A program made the position numbers and the translations under genes. The notes under the pieces are model-generated. The model did not search any database and had not been told where the DNA came from. It was given only the letters and a program-made list of their open reading frames with translations. Of a stretch of DNA of 64,000 nt, positions 2,859-52,216 are shown one piece after another; position 1 is the stretch's first letter; each line of letters begins with the position of its first letter. This stretch comes from Phytoseiulus persimilis (lineage: Eukaryota; Arthropoda; Arachnida; Mesostigmata; Phytoseiidae). The stretch spans positions 53,692,001-53,756,000 of the forward strand of contig CM075101.1 in assembly GCA_037576195.1 (NCBI GenBank), read 5' to 3'.

Positions 2859-3693
2859 TGACGACCTCGCTGCCTGTTGAGACATCCTGAGAAATACAAT
2901 CATTCCAGGTATACGCGACCATCCAGAGGACGGAGCGTTTTTCGTCGAGCCATCGCCTGCATTCGGCAGATTTGAGTGCGTTCAAGAACCAGGAAATATT
3001 CGGGAAATGCAACCACATCAATGGCCACGGTCATAATTATAAGAGTGAGTTGGCTATCTCGGTTCCCGATCTGGATCCCGGGTGGCATTGACTCTGAGTT
3101 GTATGCGGATCACTAATACGTCAGGAATATATCTCTCGCGGACACTATCCTGGAGCACAGGTTGCTGGACCTTGTTTCCAACAACAACTTCATACAGAGC
3201 TCGACATCTGGTCTACTTCGCCGGCTTCTGGAGGATTGCCGTTGGGACGTAAGCAGTCCGTTCTGACAGGACTGTCTGAGCTGACAGAGACGCACGAATA
3301 CCGAGCTCTCAACTTATCATTGGTTTTCAGTGATCGTTGCTCTGACTGGTCCCATCGACAAAACCACTGGTATGGTAATGAATCTGGCGGAACTGAAGCG
3401 AGTAATTAAATCCAATGTTCTCGACCTCGTGGATCATAAAAACCTTGATCAAGACGTCCCATATTTCCGGAACGTAGTGAGGTAGGTCTCGAAGGATGTG
3501 GGCTCGCTGAGTGCTATTCCAAAACACTCACAGTTTCCCTTTACTAAAACTTGTCCGGAATTTCAGCACAGTGGAAAACATCGCTGTGTTTGTTTGGCGT
3601 CAGTTGAGGCCTGTCATCGACCAGAAGCTCCACATTCGTGTCACCGTACATGAGACAGATAAAAACTCGGCAACTTTCCCAGCAACTATATAA
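2858..3693 (+). CDS. PTS: 6-pyruvoyl-tetrahydropterin synthase (PTPS)
   Basis: PTPS converts 7,8-dihydroneopterin triphosphate to 6-pyruvoyl-tetrahydropterin, the second step of tetrahydrobiopterin synthesis in the cytosol. Exons 2909-3044, 3331-3481 and 3567-3693 (TAA at 3691-3693) join with phase 1 and phase 2 introns and no frame break. Visible family features are the zinc-binding histidines in SSSHRLHS and NGHGHNY, the catalytic Cys in GKCNH, the DHKNLD motif and the SxENxA segment followed by VFVW. Length is about 140 residues, as in animals. The first exon is unsure: ATG at 2858 followed by GTTGAG at 2876 keeps the frame and gives six residues, but the intron would be only 33 bases. A distal first exon is possible. 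The intron at 3045-3330 contains an open stretch I regard as chance. Confidence 0.9.
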
Positions 3694-7806: not shown

Positions 7807-10800
7807 TCATTTCTTCAGGCTCCAGAGTGGGTCCAATTGGCTCAGCGGGTCACTGGGATTTCCTATAGAGGGCTGCAATCCTCTGGGCTTCTCAAAGCTC
7901 TCCTTTGTGATCTTGCTCTTCACCTGGAAAGACGCATTACTGTTCGTTGAGCTTTTGAAATTCTTCCACCATTCAAAATGAGCACATTTCAGCTCGGGCG
8001 AGAGCTCACCTGGAAGCCTGCCATCAAGTCCTGGATGAGTCTTTCTTCAACGGTCAATGCTTCTCCTTTCTTCTCTTTATTGTGAATTTCTTCCACATCG
8101 GTCGCTTTCTCGCCAATCTGTTCAATGCAGCCTCTCTCCACCAACAATGAGCGTGCCGTGTGGTGAGCGAAGTCGACGCAAGTCTTCAGCTGATCCTTCT
8201 CCAGAAGAGCCAATTTTCTCCCGCGAACGAGGTCCCCAAGAAGGGATGCGATTGGGCACAGCCGAGCTTCTCTCAGATTGGACAGCCACTTGATGCAGAA
8301 GGCGATAACGCCCGAACGGCCGCAACCTCCAAGACATTGGATGATCAATGGACTCTCTCTCCGCTTCTGGCTAGTATAGTAATAAAGAACTTGATCTCCG
8401 AATGATGCCAATTTGGAAACATCTCTCGTCCATTCGTTGAGGTGAAGGAGAATCAAGTTCTTGGCCGGTCCCTGCAAGCAAGCGCCGTTCGTTTATACTT
8501 CGGACAACGTTCGAGGAGACTCATGCTCAAGTTTGGCCTGTGGTTAACGTGTCTCACCATGAGTTCACCATTCCGGCGATTTGGTTATATTTACCTGAGG
8601 ACCAGACACGCTCAAGAGTCGTTCGGAAAATAAGCCAGCCTCCTTCTCGGTGAAGGACTGTACAGAAACCTGGTACTGACCGTAGCTTTGAACGGTTCCC
8701 TTCTCGGAAGGGAAGAATAGTTGCGACGACAGCTATTAACGAAAAGATTCATTATATGAGATGCCGTAGAACAAGATCGAGAGAGATCCGTCGCGAGGAC
8801 CCGGCGGTAGGGGCAAGAAATTAATCGAGCTCGACGAAAATCACCTCTTGGAATGACGAGAGGGACAGCAAAGTCTCCGCACTCTGCTCCCAGACCATCG
8901 CCCAAAAATCTTCCAAAGTCGACGGGATTGGTGCCTGTGTCAGGATGCAGTTCGGCTCACTGGCAGCTACGGATTTCATATAGGAAGCGTTGATATAGTC
9001 GTCCTTCGTTGTGTTCAGAACGACGCGGTTGTAGTCGTCTGTAAATAGAACGCCGTTGGAGCAAATCATCGAACAGTCGTCATTTCGAGCGGATCAGATG
9101 GTCTCTGAGCTCACATGGCATGATGTCAGGGAAACGGTTCTTCATGGAGCATATACGTCCGACAGATATTTTGAGCGCCCGCGCCTCCGCCTCCTGGAGG
9201 TCCAGAAATTCTTTCCAGCGGTTTTCCAAGTGGAAGGTTCTGTGGAGAGGAGCTGTGTTCTTGGAAATCTCTCTAATATTCGTAACGTGAGACATAACAG
9301 AGTTTTGCTGACCTTGTGTAGTCGTCGAGCTGATCGAAAGCATTTCGGAGATTCTGCAGTGTTCGAGGATCATCCAGAGAGTTCTCCGGTTTGGGACTGA
9401 GAGATATTATCGACGTCGCGTCCGCAGGATCCGGAACTCGATCGAGAGCCGAAGCGGACTGCAAATGGCGCAAAGTATCATAATCTGATGTGGTTCGCGA
9501 GCACCGAACGATCCTCGTTTTCCGTGAAGTATGTTCATGATTCAGCCCTTACCGCGTTTGACTCCGAACCATTGTATTGACCTCTGGGTGGATTTTTCGA
9601 CGGCTTTTCGGGTTCAACCACAGCGGACAGTACAACAGGCTGGAGAATGTTCTGGGGTGTTTGACCTTCGGAAGGCATTTGGAGTGCCGGACTCTCATCC
9701 AAAAGGCTTTTCAGCTGTTGAGAGGCCAGACTGTTTGAGTTCATCGCTGATTGTTGAGACGGTCTGGGCTGCTCGGGAACGGTCGTTTGAGCGAAATGCT
9801 GCGTATTGCCTTGTTGGCCAGACAGGTATTGAGGGGTTGTGTAGGTCACCTCGCTGTGCCCACTCGGTTCTTGCAGAGCGTCAGTATTAGAGCGAGGCGG
9901 CAGAGATGCAGCTGGACCGACGAACCTCGGTTCCTGCCCTCGAGCAACCACGTTCGGCAAGTACGCATTGCCCGGAGCGGCGGGGGGAACATTCTGCATC
10001 GGGGCAGGTACTTGTGCTGGAGAGGGTGCTGCTGAGACGATAGCTGATGCTGTGTGGGCCGCGGAAGTAACCGTTGAAGTTGATAGCGGTGTCGGCAATG
10101 ATACAGAGGGATAGGAATAGCCGGGCGCCATTTGATTCGCACTGTTCGGCATGGTGTTCGCTTGTGAAGGGGATGCGTACCCTTGGTACATCTGGTAGTA
10201 CTGCGCGTAAGCATTAGGATTGCTATAAAGACTGTTGGAACTCGTCAAAATGCTGTTGTAGACTCCACTCGTCATCACGGTGCTTGCGCTCGCCGTGGGA
10301 GCTGCTGTCGGTAGATTGTAGCCGTTCCATCGATAAACGTTCTTGTAGGTACCCGCACCCGCTTCGTTCTCATTCCCGCCAGCAAAATACTGCGCTTGGC
10401 TCATCGGAGTACCCGGAGGATTCGGATGCACCTGCTTGAACGGAGAAGACAAACTCGTGGAGTTCGTTCCCGGAATCACTTGTGTGACCGGAGCACCGCT
10501 GCTCTCCCCGGTTTTGGGAGCCGCTGAGATTCGTGCTTGACCGTATTGAGACACATCGTATTGATGCTGTTGTTGAGATGGTGTCGAGTACGCGGAGTTG
10601 TCGGCTGTTGTTTGAGCTGAGGAGATATGTCCTGGAGTCATGTTCTTAGGGTCGCTCCTCGCCGCTGGTGCGATGTTGGAGCCCTGTGTGTTGGACGAAT
10701 ACAAATGAGCGTATGGCGCGTAGCCTTGGTACAGCGCCTGGTTGTAGCTTGCATGATCATTCACTTGGTACGCATTGTAGATTGGATTCGCTGGCCCAGC

Positions 10801-13800
10801 AGAGTACATCGATGGCGCAATTTGAGACCCGCCCCCTCCTCCGCCCATGTTCTGAGCTGTCGTCGGAGGAGGTGTGTTTTGAGACGCGGTTGAGTGCACC
10901 TGCGGAACGTTCGATGTCAAGGGGGTTTCAGCTGGGGGTGACACAATTTGAGCCCCCGGAGGTAGGACGGCAGATCCCGGCTGGTTTCGCATGGGGGTCC
11001 GATTCAGCGAAGTCGGCAAGCTCATCTGGGGAGGTTGCGCGTTGCCCGTCAACGATGTCGAAGAACCCATCGAGCTCATCGCCACCGATGGCGGCAAATT
11101 GACATTAGCCATACCAGGAGATCCGGGCATAGCCTGCGGAACATACTCATTCTTCTTGGCGTTGTTCATCATGGTCAGGTAGTCCTTCAGCTTCGGAGGT
11201 TGAGCAGCTTGAGACGTTGGAATGGCGGGGGTAAGATGACTGAAAGCGGGAGGAACTCCAGGTTTTTGAGCTGAGAGCTGGGCCAGTTCAGCTTGACGAG
11301 CTCGCAATCTCTCCTCCTGCTCTTTTTCAACTTGCACGACACTTCGTAGACGGGTGACGAGTCGCCTCACATCGTTGACGAAAATTCCGTAGAAGTCAGT
11401 TCCTTTCGCGGCGTGTAATCCAACTTCCTCGAACGATTTGTACGCTGCCCGTAGCCCTTCGATCGAGGTCGTCCATGGCTTCCTCGCTTGTTCTAAATTC
11501 AGGCGGATTTCCGCTGTGTTGGCATTTGCTTGGGAGACAGCTTTTAGGATGTTGTCTTGGGCCAGAAGATTCTTCTCCAGGATCGCTATTGATTGCTTGT
11601 GTTTCGACAAAGCCTTCTCGAAAACTTCATTCAAGTCTTCTTGGGCATTTGCGACGATGAGCTTCGTGATGTCATCATTTATCAGAGAGTCTCTCAGTTC
11701 GGAGAATAACTTCTGCCGCTGCTGTTTCATCTCGTCCAATTTGTCCAAAAGTTTAATGAAATCCAGAATAACTATTTCGTCTTCTCTGGTCACGGCGATG
11801 ACATGAGGAAGTTTTTGTTCGAGAACCTCGGGCGACAGTTGGAGGAGAGCCAAATAATCGTCGTGGTCCTTCAAGGCTTTTCTCAGGGTGCCGTTGTTGT
11901 TGGCCGATTGGCTTCGTATTTCCTTGTACTTGTTCAGTTCGGCTTTGAGATCAGCCACAACGTTCGAAGTCACGCTGGCAGGATTTGACATTGCGATCAG
12001 CTGCTCTGCCTCGTTCAAATGTTTGCCGACTTCGTCCGACATCGTGTCGATTTGCCCTAGTTGCGCGTTGATGCTCGAAATAGAGAGCCTATCGGTACTG
12101 AATTGTGCGCAGACCTCGATCACGTCCGGTGGAAGAACCGGTTTTTTCTGAAATTCACCCAATAGGATTACTCCATGGATCCCCCTGTCACCTGAGTTTG
12201 GCCCAAACGCTGAGACGGGGTCATGGAATCCCAGCGGAACTCACCATTAATGCGAACAAATCTTTCTTTGAAATTTTCAGACTGCTCTCGTACGAGGCGA
12301 GTTCGGCATCTTTATCCTCCACGATCTTAGAAATCCGACGAAGTATCTGTGCTTTCTGTTCTGAGTAAACTGACGATGCTTCATGGGCCGCCATGGGTAT
12401 CAATGTTGCGAACAAATCTGGTCCGCACACCTGGGAACCGACAGGGTACGGTTGTCGAAATAGGAAACGTACAGCGTTCAACTTGAGAAGGAACAAGATG
12501 CCCTCTACCTCTCACCTCAGGGTCGTTCGGGTCAAAAGGGGTTCCCTTGACGAGGACGGCTCCCTTGACCTCCGGCAAGCTCTCCGCATTCAACACTTTG
12601 TCATGATAGACGAAATCGTTCTCGCGGACAGCGACATTCAATTTCCCGCCTGAAAGGGAACGGCCGTTCATGGGATGTTTCACATGTCTGTGTGTCGGAA
12701 TGCGGATCGGAACCGGGACTCTCATTACCGATAACATCTCGCGTGAACGCCAACGTATCCTCGATACCGAGGTCTTCCGCGGCGCGGACACTCTCATCGA
12801 AGCGTTCCATGGCCAGTTTATACCATGACACTCTGAGGCCGTATTGGTTGTCCTCTTCAGACATCATCCCCATATGGAGCGCAGTCAAGGCGCCGTAATA
12901 CGCGGCCTAGAACGGGTAACAACAGATGATACCTGGCGGAAATGGTCGAACGGGAAAAGGCAGCAGACAGTGCTCGAAGTTCATCTCGGCAAGCCCGTAG
13001 CGCATACCTTCATTTCGCAGATGCGTTTCCATTGCTGAAAAATCTTTGACCCGACAATCGATTTCACGTCAGAACTCAGATTGTTGATTGACTTCGTGTA
13101 AAAATCCACGATTTGAGACGCAATCTTCGCGGAAATCCCACTTTTGCGGTTGTCAAGCATAGATTTTTCGAGGATGCACTCCTGGGATTGAGCCAGCATC
13201 ACCAAGGAGTAGAACGTCAACAAGTCGTGCGACAGGTCACAGCCCTGGAAGTCGTTATCCGATGTTTATATGAATTTCACTTCATCCAAAACTGACGTTC
13301 CCGTACGGGTAGGGTTCATGCTTGGCACGGCTTCCCGCCTTCATCATTCACCTTTGGTTGAGGATAGGTGTCTCGATTATGCTGGAACGTCCAAGCGGCA
13401 GCTTGGAAGTGAGTACAAGCGTTTTTCATCCCTTCGGCCGTCGTTCTGTCTTCGATGGCGCCAAGTTGCGAGTGTAGAGCTCCAATATTGTACAGAATCG
13501 ACGATAACTCATACTTCACATCCGCGATATTGAACATCACGCCTGGGGGGAGAGATCGAATCAAGACTCGGGGGCTCCGGCGATTGCTAATCATGCAGGA
13601 GCGTTACTCTTGATACTCACCCGAGTAGAGGTCTGACCACATGAATGCGACGCACGCGGCACCATCGTCGGTCATCGGGAAACGGTTTTGTTGCAGCCGG
13701 AGTTGGGAATAATACCTTCTTAGGGTTTGTATACCTTGAAAGTCTTTGGAAGCTTTGCAAGCGGCCTGCAGAGATTATGTCTGTTAGGGTCGGAGATTTC

Positions 13801-15560: not shown

Positions 15561-16446
15561 GTAGACATCATTTTCTGGAGTCCGGAATCCCGAAAATCAT
15601 CCGCCCCAGACAGAGCCCCATGGATAAATCACTTGTCCTGGTCATATGGTCCGGGAAGTGATTTTCCGTCAGTAGTAGACATCATTTTCCGTAGTACGGT
15701 GTACGTGGAACGAATTTCCGTACCACCCTGGTACGCGGAATAACGGACGTGAGACCCATCTCTTGTATCCGAAGGGATTTCCCCTCCCGCCTGACAAAAG
15801 AAAAAGAAAAGGTTTGGAAAAGCATGGTCAGATTGGTCCCAGGATCAACCCTCGAGTTTTCGAGAAGTATGGTCAGATTGGTCCTGGAATCACCCCTCCA
15901 GATTCGGAAAGGTATGGTCAGAATCACCGGAGCGTATTACGGGAGGAGTGCGGACAAACTGACAAACGGAGCCGATCATATATAGTCAGGATCCTCGGGT
16001 CGGGAATCCGAGAAATGAATTTCCGTACCACCCCGGTACGGCAATTCATTTCACGTACTCCTACTACGGAAAATGATGCCTACTTCCAAAGGAAAATCAC
16101 TTTCAAGACCAGGGAAAATGATTTAACGGACTGGCTAGTCCGATACATGATCGGTCTGGGACGGATGATTTTCCGGACTTGGCAGTCCGACCCGATACCA
16201 TCGGCAGTGCGATGCTGAATGTTTCAGTAGAGCATGTTCGGATCAACAGAATCAGGGCTGAATCGCTCTGACATCCCTCAGCAGGGTCTCTCCTTACGGA
16301 AAATCACTTTCTGGACCATCGGACCAGGGAAAATGATTCATCGGACTGGCTAGTCCGATAAATGATTTATTGGACCGGCCAGTCGGATTCGAGCAAATTT
16401 CGAATTCTGGACCGGCTGATTCTGGACTCCGGAAAATGATGTCTTC
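15561..16446. mobile_element. Composite element with inverted ends and internal repeats (foldback-like)
   Basis: The left end reads AGACATCATTTTCTGGAGTC from 15563. The right end (16424-16446) read on the other strand gives AGACATCATTTTCCGGAGTC. Inside, motifs of the type CATTTTCCGTAGTA and AAATCACTT occur on the left and their reverse complements on the right, so the arms are repetitive and can fold back. The hairpin CGGACTGGCTAGTCCG occurs twice (about 16126 and 16340). The middle carries 45-base units with GGTCAGATTGGTCC at 15825-15935, followed by ACAAACTGACAAAC and GCCGATCATATATAGT (15953-15990). There is no transposase ORF. I found no clear target-site duplication. Confidence 0.6.
15825..15935 (+). 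repeat. 45-base tandem repeat, copy A
   Basis: Two full units and a partial third, each 45 bases long, share ATGGTCAGATTGGTCC and a downstream ATCACCCCTCCAGA core (partly diverged in unit 1). The period is a multiple of three, so all units stay open in the same frame. Confidence 0.75.
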
Positions 16447-24567: not shown

Positions 24568-24575
24568 AATTAGAT

Positions 24576-24817
24576 CAGTGGTTCTCAAAGTGGTCGATAT
24601 CGAGCCCTCCTGGGGGTCGACCGTCGACCCCCAGGAGGTCGATGGCCGATCTCCGGTTCACAGAGGTGATGCCGGGGTGGATTTGACCATACTTCTTGGC
24701 GTCCAAAAGGGTGGATCAAGGGGCCGACGGTCGATCCCCGGGGGACGGCCAGTCCATAAACTTCAACGAAGGTCGCCCAGGGGGTCGATGGGTCAGTGGG
24801 AAGTTTGAGAACCACTG
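24576..24817. mobile_element. Non-autonomous hAT transposon (MITE), 242 bp
   Basis: Terminal inverted repeats CAGTGGTTCTCAAA (24576) and TTTGAGAACCACTG (ending 24817) match perfectly over 14 bases and have the standard sequence of hAT-element ends. Flanking octamers aattagat (24568-24575) and gcttagat (24818-24825) agree at 6 of 8 positions, as expected for an 8-bp hAT target-site duplication with some decay. There is no transposase. An internal hairpin with perfect 15-base arms lies at 24605-24637 (CCTCCTGGGGGTCGA, loop CCG). Confidence 0.88.
24605..24637. repeat. Perfect 15-base-arm hairpin inside the hAT MITE
   Basis: Arms 24605-24619 and 24623-24637 are exact reverse complements around the three-base loop CCG. 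The centre contains two GTCGAC sites. Confidence 0.85.
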
Positions 24818-25345: not shown

Positions 25346-27610
25346 GATGTTCGCGGCTCCACTGTTCTCCCAACGATACTCACTTTGATCTTCCATCCAC
25401 ATCATACAGCTTGGGACTGAAGGTTCCGTTATCTTGTGGATTTTGGGTAATTGAGAATCGTGAGCGCATCGGTGGTATCGGAAAACTTCACGGAGATTTT
25501 GGCACCGAGGATGAGGTTTTTGTGTTTGATATACCATGAATCTGGGAGAGAATCCGCAGGAGCTTTGTAACAGGCCGATAGGACCTATACCTGGATTCAC
25601 TCAGGGAAGAGGGACAGTGCACTTATGGTTCAACTTCTCTTTATTTTCCTTCTTCTCGCCCGGCTCCTCCATAGGCAGCCACGGTCCTTCACACAGTTCA
25701 CGGCACTCTCTACTCTCTTCTTCTAGCTACTGGCGGCTTCTCTCGTCAACGCCGCTTCCTTTCCCATGTCGATCCGCCGGCATTGCCGCCCTCCGACATG
25801 CATCTCCAGAGGACATCCTAGCTAGCTCTCCTCAAGAATCCAACTGGCTGTTACACATTGATGAAGGATGTTGAGAACAACCAAGGACCGAAGTCTTTCT
25901 TCCCAATGGAATAGCCCCTGACTGGAGCTGCGACGTCCAGGTACTAAAGAATCGAGAAAAAAAACAGGCAAACAGGCGCTATGTAAAGCCGAATGAGCCT
26001 TTCGAGACGGGCCAAATCGGCCCATTCTGGATTCATCCTGAAACCACGCAGATTGGAAGAGGTGATTATGTGGGAGCTCGCATCGTTCTTCCTCTTTTAC
26101 GACAGAGCGTCTTGGTATCTAAAAAAGAGCGCTCCACATCGATCTTAGCCATAGGAATTTTAACAGAACGTCGGTAATGGATAGGTTTCTCGGGTCGAAA
26201 GTTACTCCTCCGGATTCCAGGATTCTGTTACAACCACCCCCCCCCCCACCCCCAATCGAGTTTCTCTTTGATTGGAGCTGCTTTTGGTCCAAGTGACTTT
26301 GTATACGCACTTTTTGATATCGCGCAGAAGTGCTGATGGGCATGTAGGGCGGGCGGGGGTAACATCGAGGCGTATGGGACTTCCCCCCGTATGGCCCAGG
26401 GCCGTGGAAATTAGGATGAAATTCGTTCCATCAATCATCACATGCCTTGACCCCAATTTGAAGTTGCATCCCCATGCTCCGTCGGTCCTCAAATGGTTGA
26501 AAATCGAAAGTTAGATGATCGATACATACATGACGTGCATGTCATCCCCGGGGACGGGGACTTTGGTCATTTAATTTCACCAAGTCAGGCGAGGACAGAG
26601 CGGACGATAGTAGTCGAGCAAACGTGCCTTCATGGATGGATTCAGTGAAAGGTCGGGATCGAGAGGAATCTGAGTCGCAATGATAATATAAGCGAAAACG
26701 TCCAATGTGAATACTGAATCGATTCCAAATTTTCGCGTTAGTTGAAGTCTCCCGACGTAGCGTACGCGGCGAAGATCGGCGTACATCCATCAGGTCATTT
26801 TCGATTAAACAGTTTTGAGACTGAAAAAGCATGGAATGTAACTCCAGGGTTGGGGCCAAAGTATCGAATGTTGATGATGGCACGAATTCTATCGAAATTT
26901 TTCATTATTGAGCTGCGGCACCAAAATCGGGTCAAGCAAATCCCGTAACAGTTCGCGATCGACAGAGCGTTTTCTCTCCCAAAGTTTCTCTCAATGTATT
27001 CGACATTCTCGTAGTTTCCCCGCATATAAGCCTGCCGTGGGGCCGATTCCCCCATCTTGTAATTACGGGTTGCGCTGGAAGCGGGAGGTCGGGGGCCAGG
27101 CTCTCTGAATATTTGAAACGCGCGGAGTAGCCTTCACAGAAACCTTCTCCACGTTCGCCACCAAACAGGTCGACCTTCGGGAATAACTCATGAACTTTTT
27201 CCACAGACGCTCTGAAATCCATGAAAAACACATCTTATGTGCACCTTCTTTGGGAACAGAGTTTTATGTAGCGGGCGGCATCCGTGACCAGTAGCGCCAG
27301 TCGGTTCATGTTGAATACCTTCTGACCACAACAGGTTCAACGCGTTTGGAAGAGCTCGAGCTGTTTCAAATGGTTCACTGGCTCAATTATTTCAAATCCT
27401 CACAGATAACATCGGCGTTGTCATCGATAGTTATCCAAAAGTTCGACTCACCGATGGAGTTCCGAATTTTCGGAAACGCGCAGTCGTGAAGGCTCGCGAG
27501 GTATGTCTTCAGAGTGGAACGGTGCGGGAGGTCTCAAGAACAGTTAGCACACTGTTAGACAGTCAGGGCGTCATCTCGTCATCCATATTTGCACCAGGGC
27601 TATCCAAGCT

Positions 27611-28522: not shown

Positions 28523-31500
28523 TCATCTTCTGTGACGATGTCGGTCTCTTGAACGATCCCTCTTGTTCCTGTTGCGATTCCGGTCACGCTCCCTCGAGCG
28601 AGATCTGCTCCGAGACCTGGAACAGAGGACGTGTGAAGCTTAAACGCGTACAGAGCTCTCTCGGATCCTTCGCAGACGCAGATTCCGATGATCGAGTTGA
28701 TGAGAGAGAACTCACCTCTTGCGACGATGTCGGTCACGATCACGATGGTTGTCTCTGGGGCGGTCACGGTCACGATTATCTCTGCGGGAGTCTTCGTCTT
28801 TGCGCTCCTGTCGTTCACGATGGCTTTTCCCAACTTCCGGCTGTCATCGACGGCTTTACGGAGTTCGTCGAGCTTCTCACGGATTTCTATGAAACCCAGA
28901 TGGAGTTTCCCACCAAAATGATCCGCTAACCGACGGTCGTTGTCGTAAATGCCGAGATATGCAGCACACACCTGGAAAGTCTCTACGATGAGCCGACACC
29001 CGGGTCTGTTCGTCGATGATCTTCTTGATTGAAAAATTGACAAGATAGATTGCATGTCACCAACCTCACAAACTCTGAGCTTCTGCTGCTGGTAGCTGCT
29101 GGCTGGCATTGAATTCCTGTAGTGCCAACTCTGCCTCAAGTTTCCGTTTTTTCGCTTTCTCCACCTCCTCCATGATGGCCATGCTTTCATCTATCAAACC
29201 CTCGGCGCCCTACGAGGAAGAACGCCGTTTTATAGGTCGGCATTCAATTTGCAGAGGAGCGGACGGTTGGAATGCGTTAGGGATTGAAAGAATACAGGGA
29301 TTGTGTGGCAAGACGGCAAAACTCACTTTGGCTTCGGCATCGGCGAGTTTTTTGCCGATTTCTTCAGCCAGTTCGTTGATTTTGTTGAGCTTCATCGTTG
29401 CTCGGCGCTCAATTCTTCTTGCGTCTCGGCCAATTTCTTCTTCGAGTGCTCCGTCCTCCTGTCACACTCTCTGACGAACTGTTCCAACTGCTCGAGAGCC
29501 TGTTGAAAATAAACGGATGTGTTAGTGTATTTGAGGATTACTGAGTGACGGCTCGCTGGATTTCTAAACTGCGTATCGATCCTTGTCGTCTGCCAATGAG
29601 ACATTGCGCTGGTCCTCAACAACCGATAATTGCTTCAGGAAATACTGGGGAAGCCTCTCGGGCTGTGGGCGATTTATGTGGCTTCAGGATCGCCCTTTTT
29701 GCGGCGGATGCCTAGGTCAGTGCCACACCACCTGCAGCCGAAAGAGTCCCGACGGCTGGCTGTAGCTTTCCCGTGCAACTCGCACGCTCCATCGAGATGG
29801 ATGTGCTTCCTCGGTGACGCGAGGACTACTCGCTCAGCACCGCAACAGCTTATCTAGAACGACATTCGGATCCCGATCGAATCAGACGAAGCTCGACTCA
29901 CAACCCATAGAGTCATCGAGATTAGCTATATCCCTAAGTTGCCTTTCCTTATGAAACATCCACGAGAAGTTTGGTCGGCTGACACGCGGAATCGTCCGTC
30001 CCGGCGGACGACGGACCAGCCAACCGTAATCAGACGGAAGACGAACGGACGGACGGAAGAACGGACGAACATACAGGGGTACGAACAGACAGATACTGCT
30101 GCGTATCTATTTTCGCTCGTATTCACGGGTGAGCTACTCCGGAAAGGAACTAGACTCTCCAAACTAGACTTCCTCTTCGGAAGTGTTTCTTGTTCGCTCG
30201 TTTTGTTTTTCTGGATTCTTGTCGGTTCAACGTATTAACTTACATTCCGCCGCAGGTTGATAGGGAGAGGACAGTCCCTACTAGAGTATGTTCTTAGAAC
30301 ATTTTCTTAGAACGTCGGATAGGAAGAAATCCCGATGAGGAAACCGCTTCGACTTACCGGCGGTTTTTTCGTCGGCGGCTGATAACAAGCAATCGGTGAG
30401 TTGAACTCCACCGTCAAGATGTGTCGATGGTTCTGCTGCTCTTGATTTCAGCCCCACCGTCAACATGCATTTTTCTGTTTTTTTTTTGTTATGAGAATGA
30501 AGCCCTGAGATCGGAGCAAGCGATCTCCGAAGCGATCGATTCTTCTCCAGAATTTGAGTTGGTTTCTTTCGAACTACATCTTGTTGGTTTTGCTTGTTCA
30601 GTTCAACCAATGTTCAAGTCAAAGAAAGGGACTTACGACCGCCGCACTCTGTGTCTCCTACATTGTGTATCCGTTCATCCTACGGCCTCTGCCACGACTT
30701 GCGGGAGGCACTCCGAGACCTAAAGTCGACAGAGGTATGGAAAGGCTAGAATCCTCCTCTCCTTGAGGACCAAGGACTCACAAGGTCGCTTAGTATGAGG
30801 CTCTCGGCCCGAGCGCACACTTACATCAACATCGTAGAAGTAATCCCTCTCTTTGGACGCCAGTTCGTAGTCTGCACGAAGAGCCAGATCATGAATTCCG
30901 GAGCATTGTCCTATATCCATACGCTGGAAGTTGTGGAAGAAACCCTGTCTCAACTCATGTGATATACTTAGTTGAATATTGTCTAAAATTCGATTCTTGA
31001 ATACGTGATCGATTCGACAGAGCCGCGAGGCATGAACAACCAGCACTCTCACCGTCGCAGCCAGTATGTCGTGAGGGCAGCATTTGAGCAGGAAACTTTT
31101 GCAAACTTTCGATCTGAGAAATGGGTCTGCGCTTTGTCCGGGTCTCCTGTATACAAAGGAAGAAGATGGGTTAGACACACGGAGCCACCGCGACCAGTTC
31201 CTAACAGTTTCGAACGTTAGGGACCAAAGTTGCGCCCTCACAATGAATCGCTTCTCAAAACACTCTCCCCAACTACCGAAGCTCTAGATTAGGAATCGGC
31301 ACCTCTCTGGGGTGCTTGAAATCGTCTGTCCGGATCCCTCCCATACGTTATACACTCCGTTCCGTGACTTCTACCCAGGAGAATCTCACAACCCTTAAGT
31401 TTGCTGTACTCTCACACGATCAGACATCGAGCAGATGAGAGTGTCGCAGCAGGTCAATACTTCAATTTCGGATCGGGCCAATACGATTCGCTCCAGTTCG

Positions 31501-31807
31501 CCAAGTCATCAACAGATGGACTTTTCGCTTGTTTTTTTTCTCGTAAACTATCATCTTTGATAAAGATCCCCGCGTCTGCTTCGCTAGGGTCGGATATGCT
31601 TCAGTTACCTCCTGTAGATATACAGACGTTCTGAGAGTCAGGACGGACTGGGAGCAAAACTCGCGCCCCCGAGCCCCAGGAGAGCTCTAACCACTGCTCA
31701 AACTAGTAATCATCACATGTTTTCATGAAATGAGGGGATCTATTACCGTCTCGAGCGGTACCCATGAGCTCATCGAGCATTGCTCGCATCTGCTCTTGGG
31801 CCGACAT
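28523..31807 (-). CDS. LUC7L: Luc7-like U1 snRNP splicing factor
   Basis: LUC7L proteins bind U1 snRNP and help select 5' splice sites in the nucleus. Exons: 31807-31747 (MSAQEQMRAMLDELMG), 31146-31053, 30923-30825, 29499-29327, 29209-29065, 28971-28716 and 28616-28523. Landmarks in order: the first zinc finger (VCKSFLLKCCPHDIL), GIHDLALRADYE, the coiled-coil helix (ECDRRTEHSKKKLAETQEE), YRNSMPASS, the second zinc finger (LRVCE/VCAAYLG...LADHFGGKLHLGF), and a C-terminal Arg/Asp/Ser-rich tail ending RDRHRHRR before TGA at 28523-28525. All splice sites are canonical, but exons 2, 4, 5 and 6 have lengths that do not fit their phases, and conserved residues continue in another frame part-way through each (see findings). 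A simple translation from this sequence is therefore broken. Confidence 0.93.
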
Positions 31808-32739: not shown

Positions 32740-32962
32740 ACATGAGGGTGATTCCTTGACTAATCTGAACATTACTTCCTAACTCTGGAGGGGTGATTCC
32801 GAGACAAATCTGAGCATTACTTCCTAACTCTGGAGGGGTGATTCCGAGACCAATCTGAGCATTACTTTCCAACTCTGGAGGGGTGATTCCGAGACCAATC
32901 TGAGCATTACTTTCCAACTCTGGAGGGGTGGTTCCGAGACCAATCTGAGCATACTTTTCAAA
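32740..32962 (-). repeat. 45-base tandem repeat, copy B (about five units)
   Basis: About five head-to-tail 45-base units, each containing TGGAGGGGTGATTCCGAGAC and TCTGAGCATTAC on the plus strand. Differences between units are few, so the array is young or homogenised. The minus strand is open through it, each unit reading as 15 residues (SNAQIGLGITPPEL), but this follows from the period and is not evidence of a gene. Confidence 0.85.
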
Positions 32963-33359
32963 ATCAGAATGCTGACCCAGTGAAGGGAGAGAAAAGTGCC
33001 TCGATGGCAGGGAGCGCCGTCCAACCGCGCGCAGCGCGGCCGGCTGGTATCTTCATAATATGTACAAACTAGCCGGACTTCGACCGATTACGCTGGCCGG
33101 CCCGTCCCTCGCTCCGCAAGTCCATGCTGATAGACAGACATTGCGTTCTATGTAGTCTCATGAGACCTTGGGGAGTGGCCACGGATTCTCGCTAGCATCA
33201 TGTCGGGGTGCTGCGCCTCATCGTTGAGATTCGTATCCCGGTCGTACATGTGAGCAAGCACGATCTAGCAGTTTCTAGCACGGAGGCACTTCTCTGCCTC
33301 TTGATTGTATCAGCGTCATTCCAAAACTACCGCCTCATTCGGCTGACTCCACACTGTCT

Positions 33360-35831: not shown

Positions 35832-37872
35832 GCTCGAAGAAATCGAAGAAAACCCGCGTCGGATCGAACATTAACGCGAGATTCAATAACGTAGAGGCCG
35901 AGTTCCACTGTCGATGGGGGGATTGTGGAGAAGTCATCGGAGACCTGGCGAAATATTACACGCATCTCAGGTATAAGTCAATTCGAATGATTCGGTGAAC
36001 TGAATTTCCGGCAAATCCCATTCCCGGTATGACATCAACTCGCTCATATTTTTCATTGACTCGAAGGCGACACTTATGGACAGGGAAAGACACGATCAAC
36101 GTGACTCAAAAAGTTTGTCAATGGCGCGATTGCTTGACCAACTCTCCATGGACGGTCACACATGTTCTGTATCATGGCTACCACGAGAAACTGAAGCTGG
36201 CTGGTAACGCTAAGCTCGAGACGCGCTCGAAGGAAGGCTACGTGTGTCTGTATTCACCCGAGCGGCAACATACCGTCGATGTCTTCGATCCGTTCGAATG
36301 CGAATGGACGGATTGCGATTATGTGCTGGAGGGCCCGGACGACTTCGATTTCCATCTACTCATACACGTTCATGACGCTGTTGGCGAGAGAGACCCAAAC
36401 AGCAATGCATTCAAGTGAGCGATGCTGATGATATCTCCAGCTGAGTTTCTTGTCCTCTTCTCGTGGACGGAGCCCATTCCTTAGTTAACGCTCACTCTGG
36501 ATCGGTATGCTCTATTACAGATGCGGGTGGCAAGGATGTACGAAAGAATCCTCGTATTCAGTTCTGAAGCACCACGTGAAGTCGCATAGCTCACACAAAG
36601 ATGCTGCATGCAATCACTGTGGATCGATTTTCCGGTCATCGAACAAGTTTTTTGACCACTATCGCAGGCAGCGAGAGTTGAGTACCATGTCGAGCTAATG
36701 ATATACTTCGAGAGGAGTAATCAGCCGCGAGCATACCGACCGAGCATTGGTTCTGCAATTCGAATCTAATCTAGGACGTTTCGCAACAGGTGTCTGAAGA
36801 AAGCAAAGAATGCCGCTATTGCGCGAAGAAGTTTGCCAATGATCGGTTGCTGAGAGACCACGAAAGTAGGCCACATCTCCCACTTCAAATGTCCGCTCTG
36901 CGACATGACCATGCCGAGTCCCAACGACGTCAAAAATCATATTGCGACTAGGCACACTAACGAGAGGACCATATGCCTGCAAACAATGCTCAAGTCGATT
37001 CAAGCTGCCGCGGAATCTCAGCACCCATGTCGAACGAGTGCATGCAAATGTAGACATGCAGTGTCCTGACTGCACCCTCGTCACCAAGAGCCACTACCAG
37101 ATGAGGAAACATCGACTCACGGATCATGATGGCGGTCAAAGGGTTTATGCTTGTCATCTATGTCCCGCCAAATTTGACATCGAAGGACATCTATTGAGCA
37201 GGTGAATGCACGCTTTCCTCCGGAGGGCTTTGATGAGCTCCCTGGTGATTTGCACTCTTCTGGTGTATCATAATCGGGAAACAACCGAGCTGGCTCTGCA
37301 TCGGACATCAGTCCCCGGAACTTCGAGCGGAGTTCGACTGTCGCTCGCGAATCAGCTCCAAGCTCAAAATGAGGATCACTCTGTTGAGAACGAAACCGCT
37401 CCGAAACCAGGGTCCAATGAAGCTCCACCGGTGGTCTCGGTCATTTTTCATATTCAGCCTTGTTGATTGTGGTGACAACCATCGCTGGTGATCCGCTGTT
37501 GATGTATGCTTGCAGATGATCGGGTGCGGATAGCGCAGCTCCGGGCCGTCCTGCGGGCGACTAACTCGATCTGCTTCTTCCAGACATTTGGTATCGGAAC
37601 ACGAATTGCAGTGGCCGTCGGGACATCGCCGTTTCTATTACGTCAGGGACCGGGATGGTTTGTTCCGATTGCAAACATTTCGCTACGAGAGTGCTGACAT
37701 TGTCGAGTTGGTTCCTAGTGGGGTACAATTGACCAATAGGAGAACAAGTGGGAAGGATGACGAATCTTCTGAGATAGAAGAAGGAATGGACGAGAGTGAA
37801 ATGACATCGGCCGACGAAGACCATAGTGCCAACTGCGCTTCCCCGCTCCAGGACCGGGAAGCCGCTCCGTGA
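35832..37872 (+). CDS. HINFP: Histone H4 transcription factor (zinc finger)
   Basis: HINFP binds the histone H4 promoter and links histone expression to S phase. Exons: 35832-35970, 36067-36414, 36521-36681, about 36800-37201 and 37584-37872 (TGA). The initiator exon lies upstream and was not found. C2H2 fingers follow the HINFP order: [54 protein letters not shown]...[86 protein letters not shown] and [11 protein letters not shown]. The post-finger signature [14 protein letters not shown] and [11 protein letters not shown] is diagnostic, and the tail is acidic. Exon 36800-37201 contains two single-base breaks (about 36880 and 36966) that split adjacent fingers into different frames. Confidence 0.9.
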
Positions 37873-50905: not shown

Positions 50906-52216
50906 TCACAGAAGTTGAGCGGACTTGGCGAACTGTCTCTGCTTCTCACGCAGCCTTTCGGTGTACGGAAGCTCTGCGCGCGCCATGTCGTAACACATAC
51001 GATTCTGTTCAGCTCCCTGAACGTCGGGCTTGAGGACAATGCTCAGAACGTCTTTCGAGTAAGCCCTCGTCTCTTTGAAGTCTGACTCCCCCATATGCTC
51101 CACACAGTGTTGATAGATGAGTTGTGTCCAGAGTTGCAGATTTTTCACCTCTTCTTCCATCCTCTGTTTACCGAAAGCTTCGATCAGTGTTTCGATCTTC
51201 GTCTTGAAATGTTGATACAGCTTCATGTCAGCCTCGTTGTAGCGTCGGAGGCTTTCCCGCACCTCCGGTGAGATCTTTCCTTCCTGCTTTCGTTTGTTAT
51301 GTTTGAAGTACATGATGTCCTGGGTGTCCCAACAAAACAGGCTCTTGAGCAGGATCAGCGACTCGTTGAAGTACTCCGTGATAAGAACGAGATCGAACTC
51401 GCGTTCGATCTTCTCGAAGGCCTCTTGCATCGAACTATCGTTAAGTTTCTCTGCCGAGTCGTAGCCCAAGTCGAACATCATTTGGTTCGGTCCAAACCGC
51501 TCGCTATACCGATTCATTCGCAGGAAGTTCTGACGGTCGACGTCGCCCGCGAATTGAGCTAGGCTAGCCCCCGTGTAGTTGTAAAGACTGAAATACGCAT
51601 ACATCGAGTCGAATAGATCGGCAGGGTCTCTCAATATTGTTACAAATGCAGTGTCGGGGGGCAAAACTTCTTTGATCGCTGCGGAGTCGTACCGCGTATG
51701 ATGCGCCAGGATGTTGAAGCCGTATGAAGGCACCTGATCCAGGGGGAGCATGAATTTTGAGAAGGGTTTCGGATGGCCTAGATAATTGCCTTCCTTGGGC
51801 AGAGCGAAAGATAGATTCCGTCTGTCGCCGTATCGCATTATGATGTTCTGAATCGTTGAACTGGCGCATTTGTGGGTCTTCAAGAGGAAAATATTGTTCA
51901 CCGGTCGACAGCATTGTTCACAACTGCGTCCTGTCCTGTTGCTGACATTATCCATCCTGCAAAGAGGGGAGATCGAGTTAATTAGGCAGCGTCTCTGGCC
52001 AGATTGTAATTCATTACCGAAGCGAACCAATTCATTCTCTGATCCGATCCTGTCATCAATGACAGCGGTTCGGGGGTATAGCGCTTCCTTGACCACCTAC
52101 ATTCGAGGATACCATATTGGCTTGGCTAGGTAGTTGGCGTACGGTTGCAGATGCAGGACGGAGAACAGGACGAAACACGCCAAGACCACGAGGGTTACGT
52201 TCCATCGGCGGATGGA
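50906..52216 (-). CDS. Galactose-3-O-sulfotransferase family enzyme
   Basis: This Golgi type II membrane enzyme family (galactosylceramide sulfotransferase GAL3ST1 and relatives) transfers sulfate from PAPS to the 3-OH of galactose on glycolipids or glycans. Exon 52216-52101 encodes a short basic segment and a signal anchor (VTLVVLACFVLFSVL); exon 51956-50906 (phase 2 junction, stop at 50906-50908) encodes the catalytic domain of about 350 residues without interruption. The 5'-phosphosulfate loop is FLLKTHKCASST and the 3'-phosphate site is VTILRDPADLFDS. Other family marks are FDLGYDS, the EREFDLVLITEYFNESLILL block and LFCWDTQDIMYFK. The initiator exon lies above 52216 and was not identified; ATG-bearing sequence at 52351-52548 is a candidate. 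Which GAL3ST subtype this is cannot be told by eye. Confidence 0.9.

Follow-up and report, generated by a model that had tools for sequence, protein, structure and literature searches.

Frame breaks in a LUC7L gene of Phytoseiulus persimilis probably reflect small indel errors in a poorly corrected stretch of the assembly

Residual indel errors of long-read assemblies are reported to fragment genes (PMC12007338, PMC8812927), and a third report describes apparent frameshifts of a eukaryotic genome that were removed by re-assembly (PMC8445201). LUC7-type proteins and splice sites are treated in, for example, PMC11732430. The stretch of DNA analysed in this study, referred to as the window, comprises 64,000 nucleotides of the mite Phytoseiulus persimilis (GenBank assembly GCA_037576195.1, contig CM075101.1, forward-strand positions 53,692,001 to 53,756,000). 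Its minus strand from 31807 to 28523 (window coordinates) reads as a LUC7L gene of seven exons, which carry four frame breaks and, when spliced, do not have a single open reading frame in the printed sequence.

The breaks were located by three-frame translation, exon by exon. Exon 1 (31747-31807; minus strand, as are all exons of this gene) starts with MSAQEQMRAMLDELMG in frame and is unbroken, as are exon 3 (30825-30923, 33 codons) and exon 7 (28523-28616), the last of which carries the RS-type tail and the stop. Within each of exons 2, 4, 5 and 6 the LUC7 family residues switch frame once: from frame 2 to frame 1 near 31109-31107, at an A run, in exon 2 (31053-31146, 94 nt), from frame 0 to frame 2 near 29403-29393 in exon 4 (29327-29499, 173 nt), from frame 0 to frame 1 near 29129-29120 in exon 5 (29065-29209, 145 nt) and from frame 0 to frame 2 near 28853-28819 in exon 6 (28716-28971, 256 nt), where the second zinc finger is followed by an Arg/Asp tail in another frame. 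The exons sum to 922 bases; the breaks are of mixed sign, three exons being one base short and one being one base long, and their contexts differ as judged by eye. All six introns start with GT and end with AG. An earlier note on this DNA had claimed four frame breaks in LUC7L with intact splice sites, which the translation and the intron ends confirm; the same frame changes were recovered at the listed coordinates of exons 2, 4, 5 and 6, and the exon 2 break lies at an A run, as stated there. Its remark that the gene, having lost no splice site, is unlike a decaying pseudogene agrees with the GT/AG ends of the six introns.

The LUC7 profile of Pfam (PF03194) matched five of the six LUC7L ORF pieces at E values up to 1, one of the six being above the curated cut-off and one, of 24 aa, being without a LUC7 match. 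When the whole genome was searched with this profile, four matches were obtained, two of which represent the LUC7L locus (both above the cut-off), while the other two are open, namely a LUC7L3-like gene (L001, 321 codons) and a divergent one (L002, 303 codons). The latter, at C4:17597544-17601257, is a divergent LUC7-family ORF that scores 100.7 bits versus 273.8 for the LUC7L3-like gene. A DNA search of the assembly with the locus identified no second LUC7L copy, returning the locus itself only, and a replacement copy was not found in the assembly by the profile and DNA searches. The conservation of the gene was assessed by aligning its pieces with LUC7L3 of the same genome, a stretch of yeast Luc7 and a provisional human LUC7L2 sequence. 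LUC7L keeps 36 of the 42 columns that are identical in these three proteins, and four of the six changed columns are conservative; with the provisional human sequence left aside, it keeps 37 of the 70 columns common to LUC7L3 and yeast, a level that would fit membership of a different subfamily. Additionally, the Cys and His residues of both zinc-finger stretches, which we take to be metal-binding, are in place in the alignment as viewed by eye. Such column conservation speaks against long neglect of LUC7L, while a young pseudogene stays compatible with it.

A second gene with broken frames is located at window 35.8-37.9 kb, 5 kb from LUC7L and on the opposite strand. It was found because zinc-finger families dominated a Pfam scan of 107 of the 434 ORFs of 45 aa or more at 19.8-51 kb, which yielded 14 families at E values up to 0.01, mostly zinc fingers. 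We take this gene to be HINFP-like (histone H4 transcription factor) on the basis of a provisional human sequence, for which the best tblastn pieces had E values of about 2.5e-10 and 6e-10; Pfam assigned it to general C2H2 and other zinc-finger families only, and a DNA search of the assembly for a second copy returned that locus only. Stretches that are each open in one frame extend over 36047-36412, 36519-36692, 36966-37202 and 37582-37872. The C2H2 zinc-finger stretch at 36784-37202 (plus strand) contains consecutive fingers in three frames (36811-36876, 36890-36955 and 36978-37043), with two breaks near 36868-36872 and 36963-36969. These finger stretches are separated by 13 and 22 nt and are thus too close together for introns between them.

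Four dispersed repeats (F1 to F4) served as a non-coding test, in which private substitutions and private indels of the window copy were compared with those of sister copies. The window copy of F2 (25566-25855) displays three private 1-base indels and eight private substitutions, versus no private indels and eight private substitutions in its five sisters, and that of F3 (24571-24817) displays three private insertions, each 1 to 3 bases long, along with 11 private substitutions, versus a single private indel (of 8 bases) and 14 private substitutions in its five sisters. Both F1 (32746-33045) and F4 (16106-16384), the latter being a control outside the affected patch, have window copies free of private indels, with nine and 28 private substitutions, respectively; their sisters have none either, with 36 private substitutions in the 11 sisters of F1 and 15 in the five of F4. 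Taken together, the 26 sisters of the four families carry one private indel to 73 private substitutions, against which the window copies of F2 and F3 (6:19) differ at p 9e-4, while the comparison with their own ten sisters (1:22) gives p 0.06 and is not significant. With F1 included, the window copies (6:28) differ from the 26 sisters at p 0.004, from their own 21 sisters at p 0.009 and from the window copy of F4 (0:28) at p 0.02. The window copies of F2 and F3 also differ from those of F1 and F4 at p 0.003, which is not a contrast of inside versus outside since F1 lies within the patch. Because F2 and F3 in the window exceed every one of their sisters in private substitutions, part of their divergence is real. 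Furthermore, F1 is without an indel in 288 columns despite its position inside the patch, an outcome with a chance of about 0.32 at 4 indels per kb, and this counts against an even error density across the inferred patch.

The sisters were drawn from high-scoring matches, and indels shared between sisters fall outside the private count. Those of F1 are the 11 loci returned, those of F2 five of the 24 copies listed, those of F3 the first five of 13, and those of F4 five of many, chosen among matches equal in length to the window copy. Nine of the first ten F4 matches listed (query start 2817-2842, end 3094-3095) equal the window copy in net length, and six F4-type matches high in the list, which start at 2757 and so extend about 60 bases further, differ from the window by a net 3 to 23 bases. 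F1 is built of 45-base tandem units, and a search that took in its surroundings yielded 236 matches, those listed being almost all within the 32746-33045 stretch of the window. A repeat at 33.07-33.62 kb was discarded for the indel test as too divergent (71-82% identity in the main matches).

Readable coding sequence in the window beyond about 24-37 kb is unbroken. On the minus strand, an HD-PTP (PTPN23)-like exon (9538-12162) is open over 875 codons, with residues 10-277 matching the ALIX V domain, and a galactose-3-O-sulfotransferase (Gal3ST) ORF (50909-52096) is open over 396 codons; two HD-PTP exon joins inspected at 12.43-12.74 kb read as introns, and the exons of a PAQR-like gene are unbroken by eye. 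A scan test on the nine segments that could be tested (together 8066 bases with 12 events; LUC7L entered as 927 bases) gave p about 5e-5, which is the floor of 20,000 simulations, and the same test on genes only (7020 bases, six events) gave p about 2e-3, the segments as well as the patch edges having been picked post hoc, after the data had been seen. The testable sequence of the patch holds about 4 indels per kb (12 in 2989). They are present in coding and non-coding sequence alike within a bounded stretch, with none in F1 and with loose edges: to the left, the patch ends somewhere between the PAQR-like gene and 24.57 kb, a range due to no repeats having been found at 19.9-24.56 kb, and to the right somewhere between 36.97 and 50.9 kb. 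Homopolymer runs counted in 4-kb bins gave no clear signal at 24-32 kb, and the 24-28 kb bin is the richest in runs of 4 or more, a pattern that a shortening of runs would not produce. Codon-bias scanning was abandoned as too weak on short exons, and a BRO1-like match at 26773-26850 (minus strand; provisional HD-PTP query, E 0.014) was set aside as unconvincing.

Control families elsewhere in the assembly were examined by rows, which test the frame within a match, gaps between rows being viewed by eye only. For HSP70, 26 of 27 rows are without a stop, and the match of one copy (L014) ends at profile position 523 of 599; for CCT, 17 of 19 rows are without a stop, and the two with stops (L036 and L046) were read as introns by eye. 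Within these families the assembly is thus mostly sound, and the LUC7L stretch is atypical. Kinases provided a weak control, with 124 of 576 candidates scored and stops in 16 of 147 rows by eye count. A search for myosin produced 77 rows, of which a cluster on C3 was read for breaks. There, coordinates and scores define C3:35498584-35500047 and C3:35534764-35536227 as mirror images, and an exon open in one frame at C3:35510774-35512207 has its mirror position at about 35522604-35524037, at which it is divided among several rows with changing frames. When the fetched part of the two arms (251 bases per arm) was compared, the 243 aligned columns were free of substitutions and differed by two single-base deletions, which lie in short runs; a difference in indels only is expected of read error and is hard to obtain by evolution. 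By coordinates and scores, C3:35498584-35536227 (L090, L091) is a palindromic duplication in which each arm holds two myosin heavy-chain-like copies, one of the inner copies being frame-broken, and it is possibly an inverted-duplicate assembly artefact. A separate contig, C52, is exactly 50,000 bases long, a length suggestive of cuts made at fixed intervals when the assembly was scaffolded.

Judged from the assembled sequence, the LUC7L frame breaks are most likely small insertion/deletion errors in a poorly corrected stretch of the assembly, a reading to which we assign a probability of roughly 0.93. Errors are favoured because the breaks lie within exons whose splice sites are intact, because indel events cluster in the window (p about 5e-5), because the C3 myosin duplicate differs by indels only in the part compared, and because the HSP70 and CCT control rows are mostly without stops. 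That the errors would extend over a whole patch is argued by the indels that also hit the HINFP-like gene and two non-coding repeats (F2 and F3). The indels seem to characterize a region of at least 12 kb rather than LUC7L itself; in the animal this gene is most likely ordinary and intact, with seven exons. This stretch of C1, covering at least window 24.6-37.0 kb, may have kept the quality of long reads, the presumed technology behind it, that were poorly corrected; low coverage, a failure of polishing or a filled gap would account for its condition. Conversely, the indels could be real, with a segment of raised small-indel rate having disabled LUC7L and the HINFP-like gene, or with the mRNAs being corrected post-transcription; we regard this as very improbable.

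Loss of LUC7L itself, i.e. a recent pseudogene that has lost its function and gained four frameshifts, is unlikely: the four breaks and the presence of other, open LUC7-family genes (L001 and L002) would suit it, but all splice sites are intact, no replacing copy was found in the assembly, and the loss of one gene leaves the indels of an unrelated gene and of nearby repeats unexplained. The retention of 36 of 42 deeply shared columns and of the zinc-finger Cys and His residues points the same way, although taken alone it is compatible with a young pseudogene, and splice sites or conserved residues lost by substitution, as signs of a pseudogene, were not found in LUC7L. The exons might alternatively have been misdrawn, with small introns or alternative splice sites restoring the frame; no support for this was found, and since conserved residues run across each break with no space for an intron, it has hardly any likelihood. 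Recoding of the transcript, by programmed frameshifting or by insertion/deletion editing, would yield a full protein from the broken frame and would be consistent with family residues resuming directly past each break, but it needs four mixed-sign events in a single mRNA plus two more in the neighbouring gene, for which no common shift site or sign was seen at the breaks, and it leaves the indels of non-coding repeats unexplained, so that we consider its probability negligible. The preference of the earlier note for assembly indels over recoding is thus supported and can be extended: beyond LUC7L, indels affect the HINFP-like gene as well as two non-coding repeats, and at least one other place of the assembly shows differences in indels only.

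With errors of the assembly as the preferred explanation, loss or pseudogene calls made from sequence only for LUC7L, the HINFP-like gene and the C3 myosin copy would probably be false, which serves as a warning to users of the assembly. A cheap test that requires no reads would be to ask whether local copies of dispersed repeats exceed their sister copies in indels.

Compared with the LUC7L/LUC7L2 family (PF03194), the window gene possesses both zinc-finger stretches, the middle part and the Arg/Asp-rich tail, and differs only in its broken printed reading frame. The breaks resemble the residual errors of long-read assemblies in being small indels, often in homopolymers, that break otherwise intact genes, as reported in PMC12007338 and PMC8812927; those reports concern small or bacterial genomes, whereas in the present case the errors seem restricted to one patch within a large assembly of an animal genome. 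The likeness to the case in PMC8445201 is that frame breaks of a reference were artefacts of assembly, with the difference that re-assembly from reads was performed there, while the present analysis used the assembled sequence.
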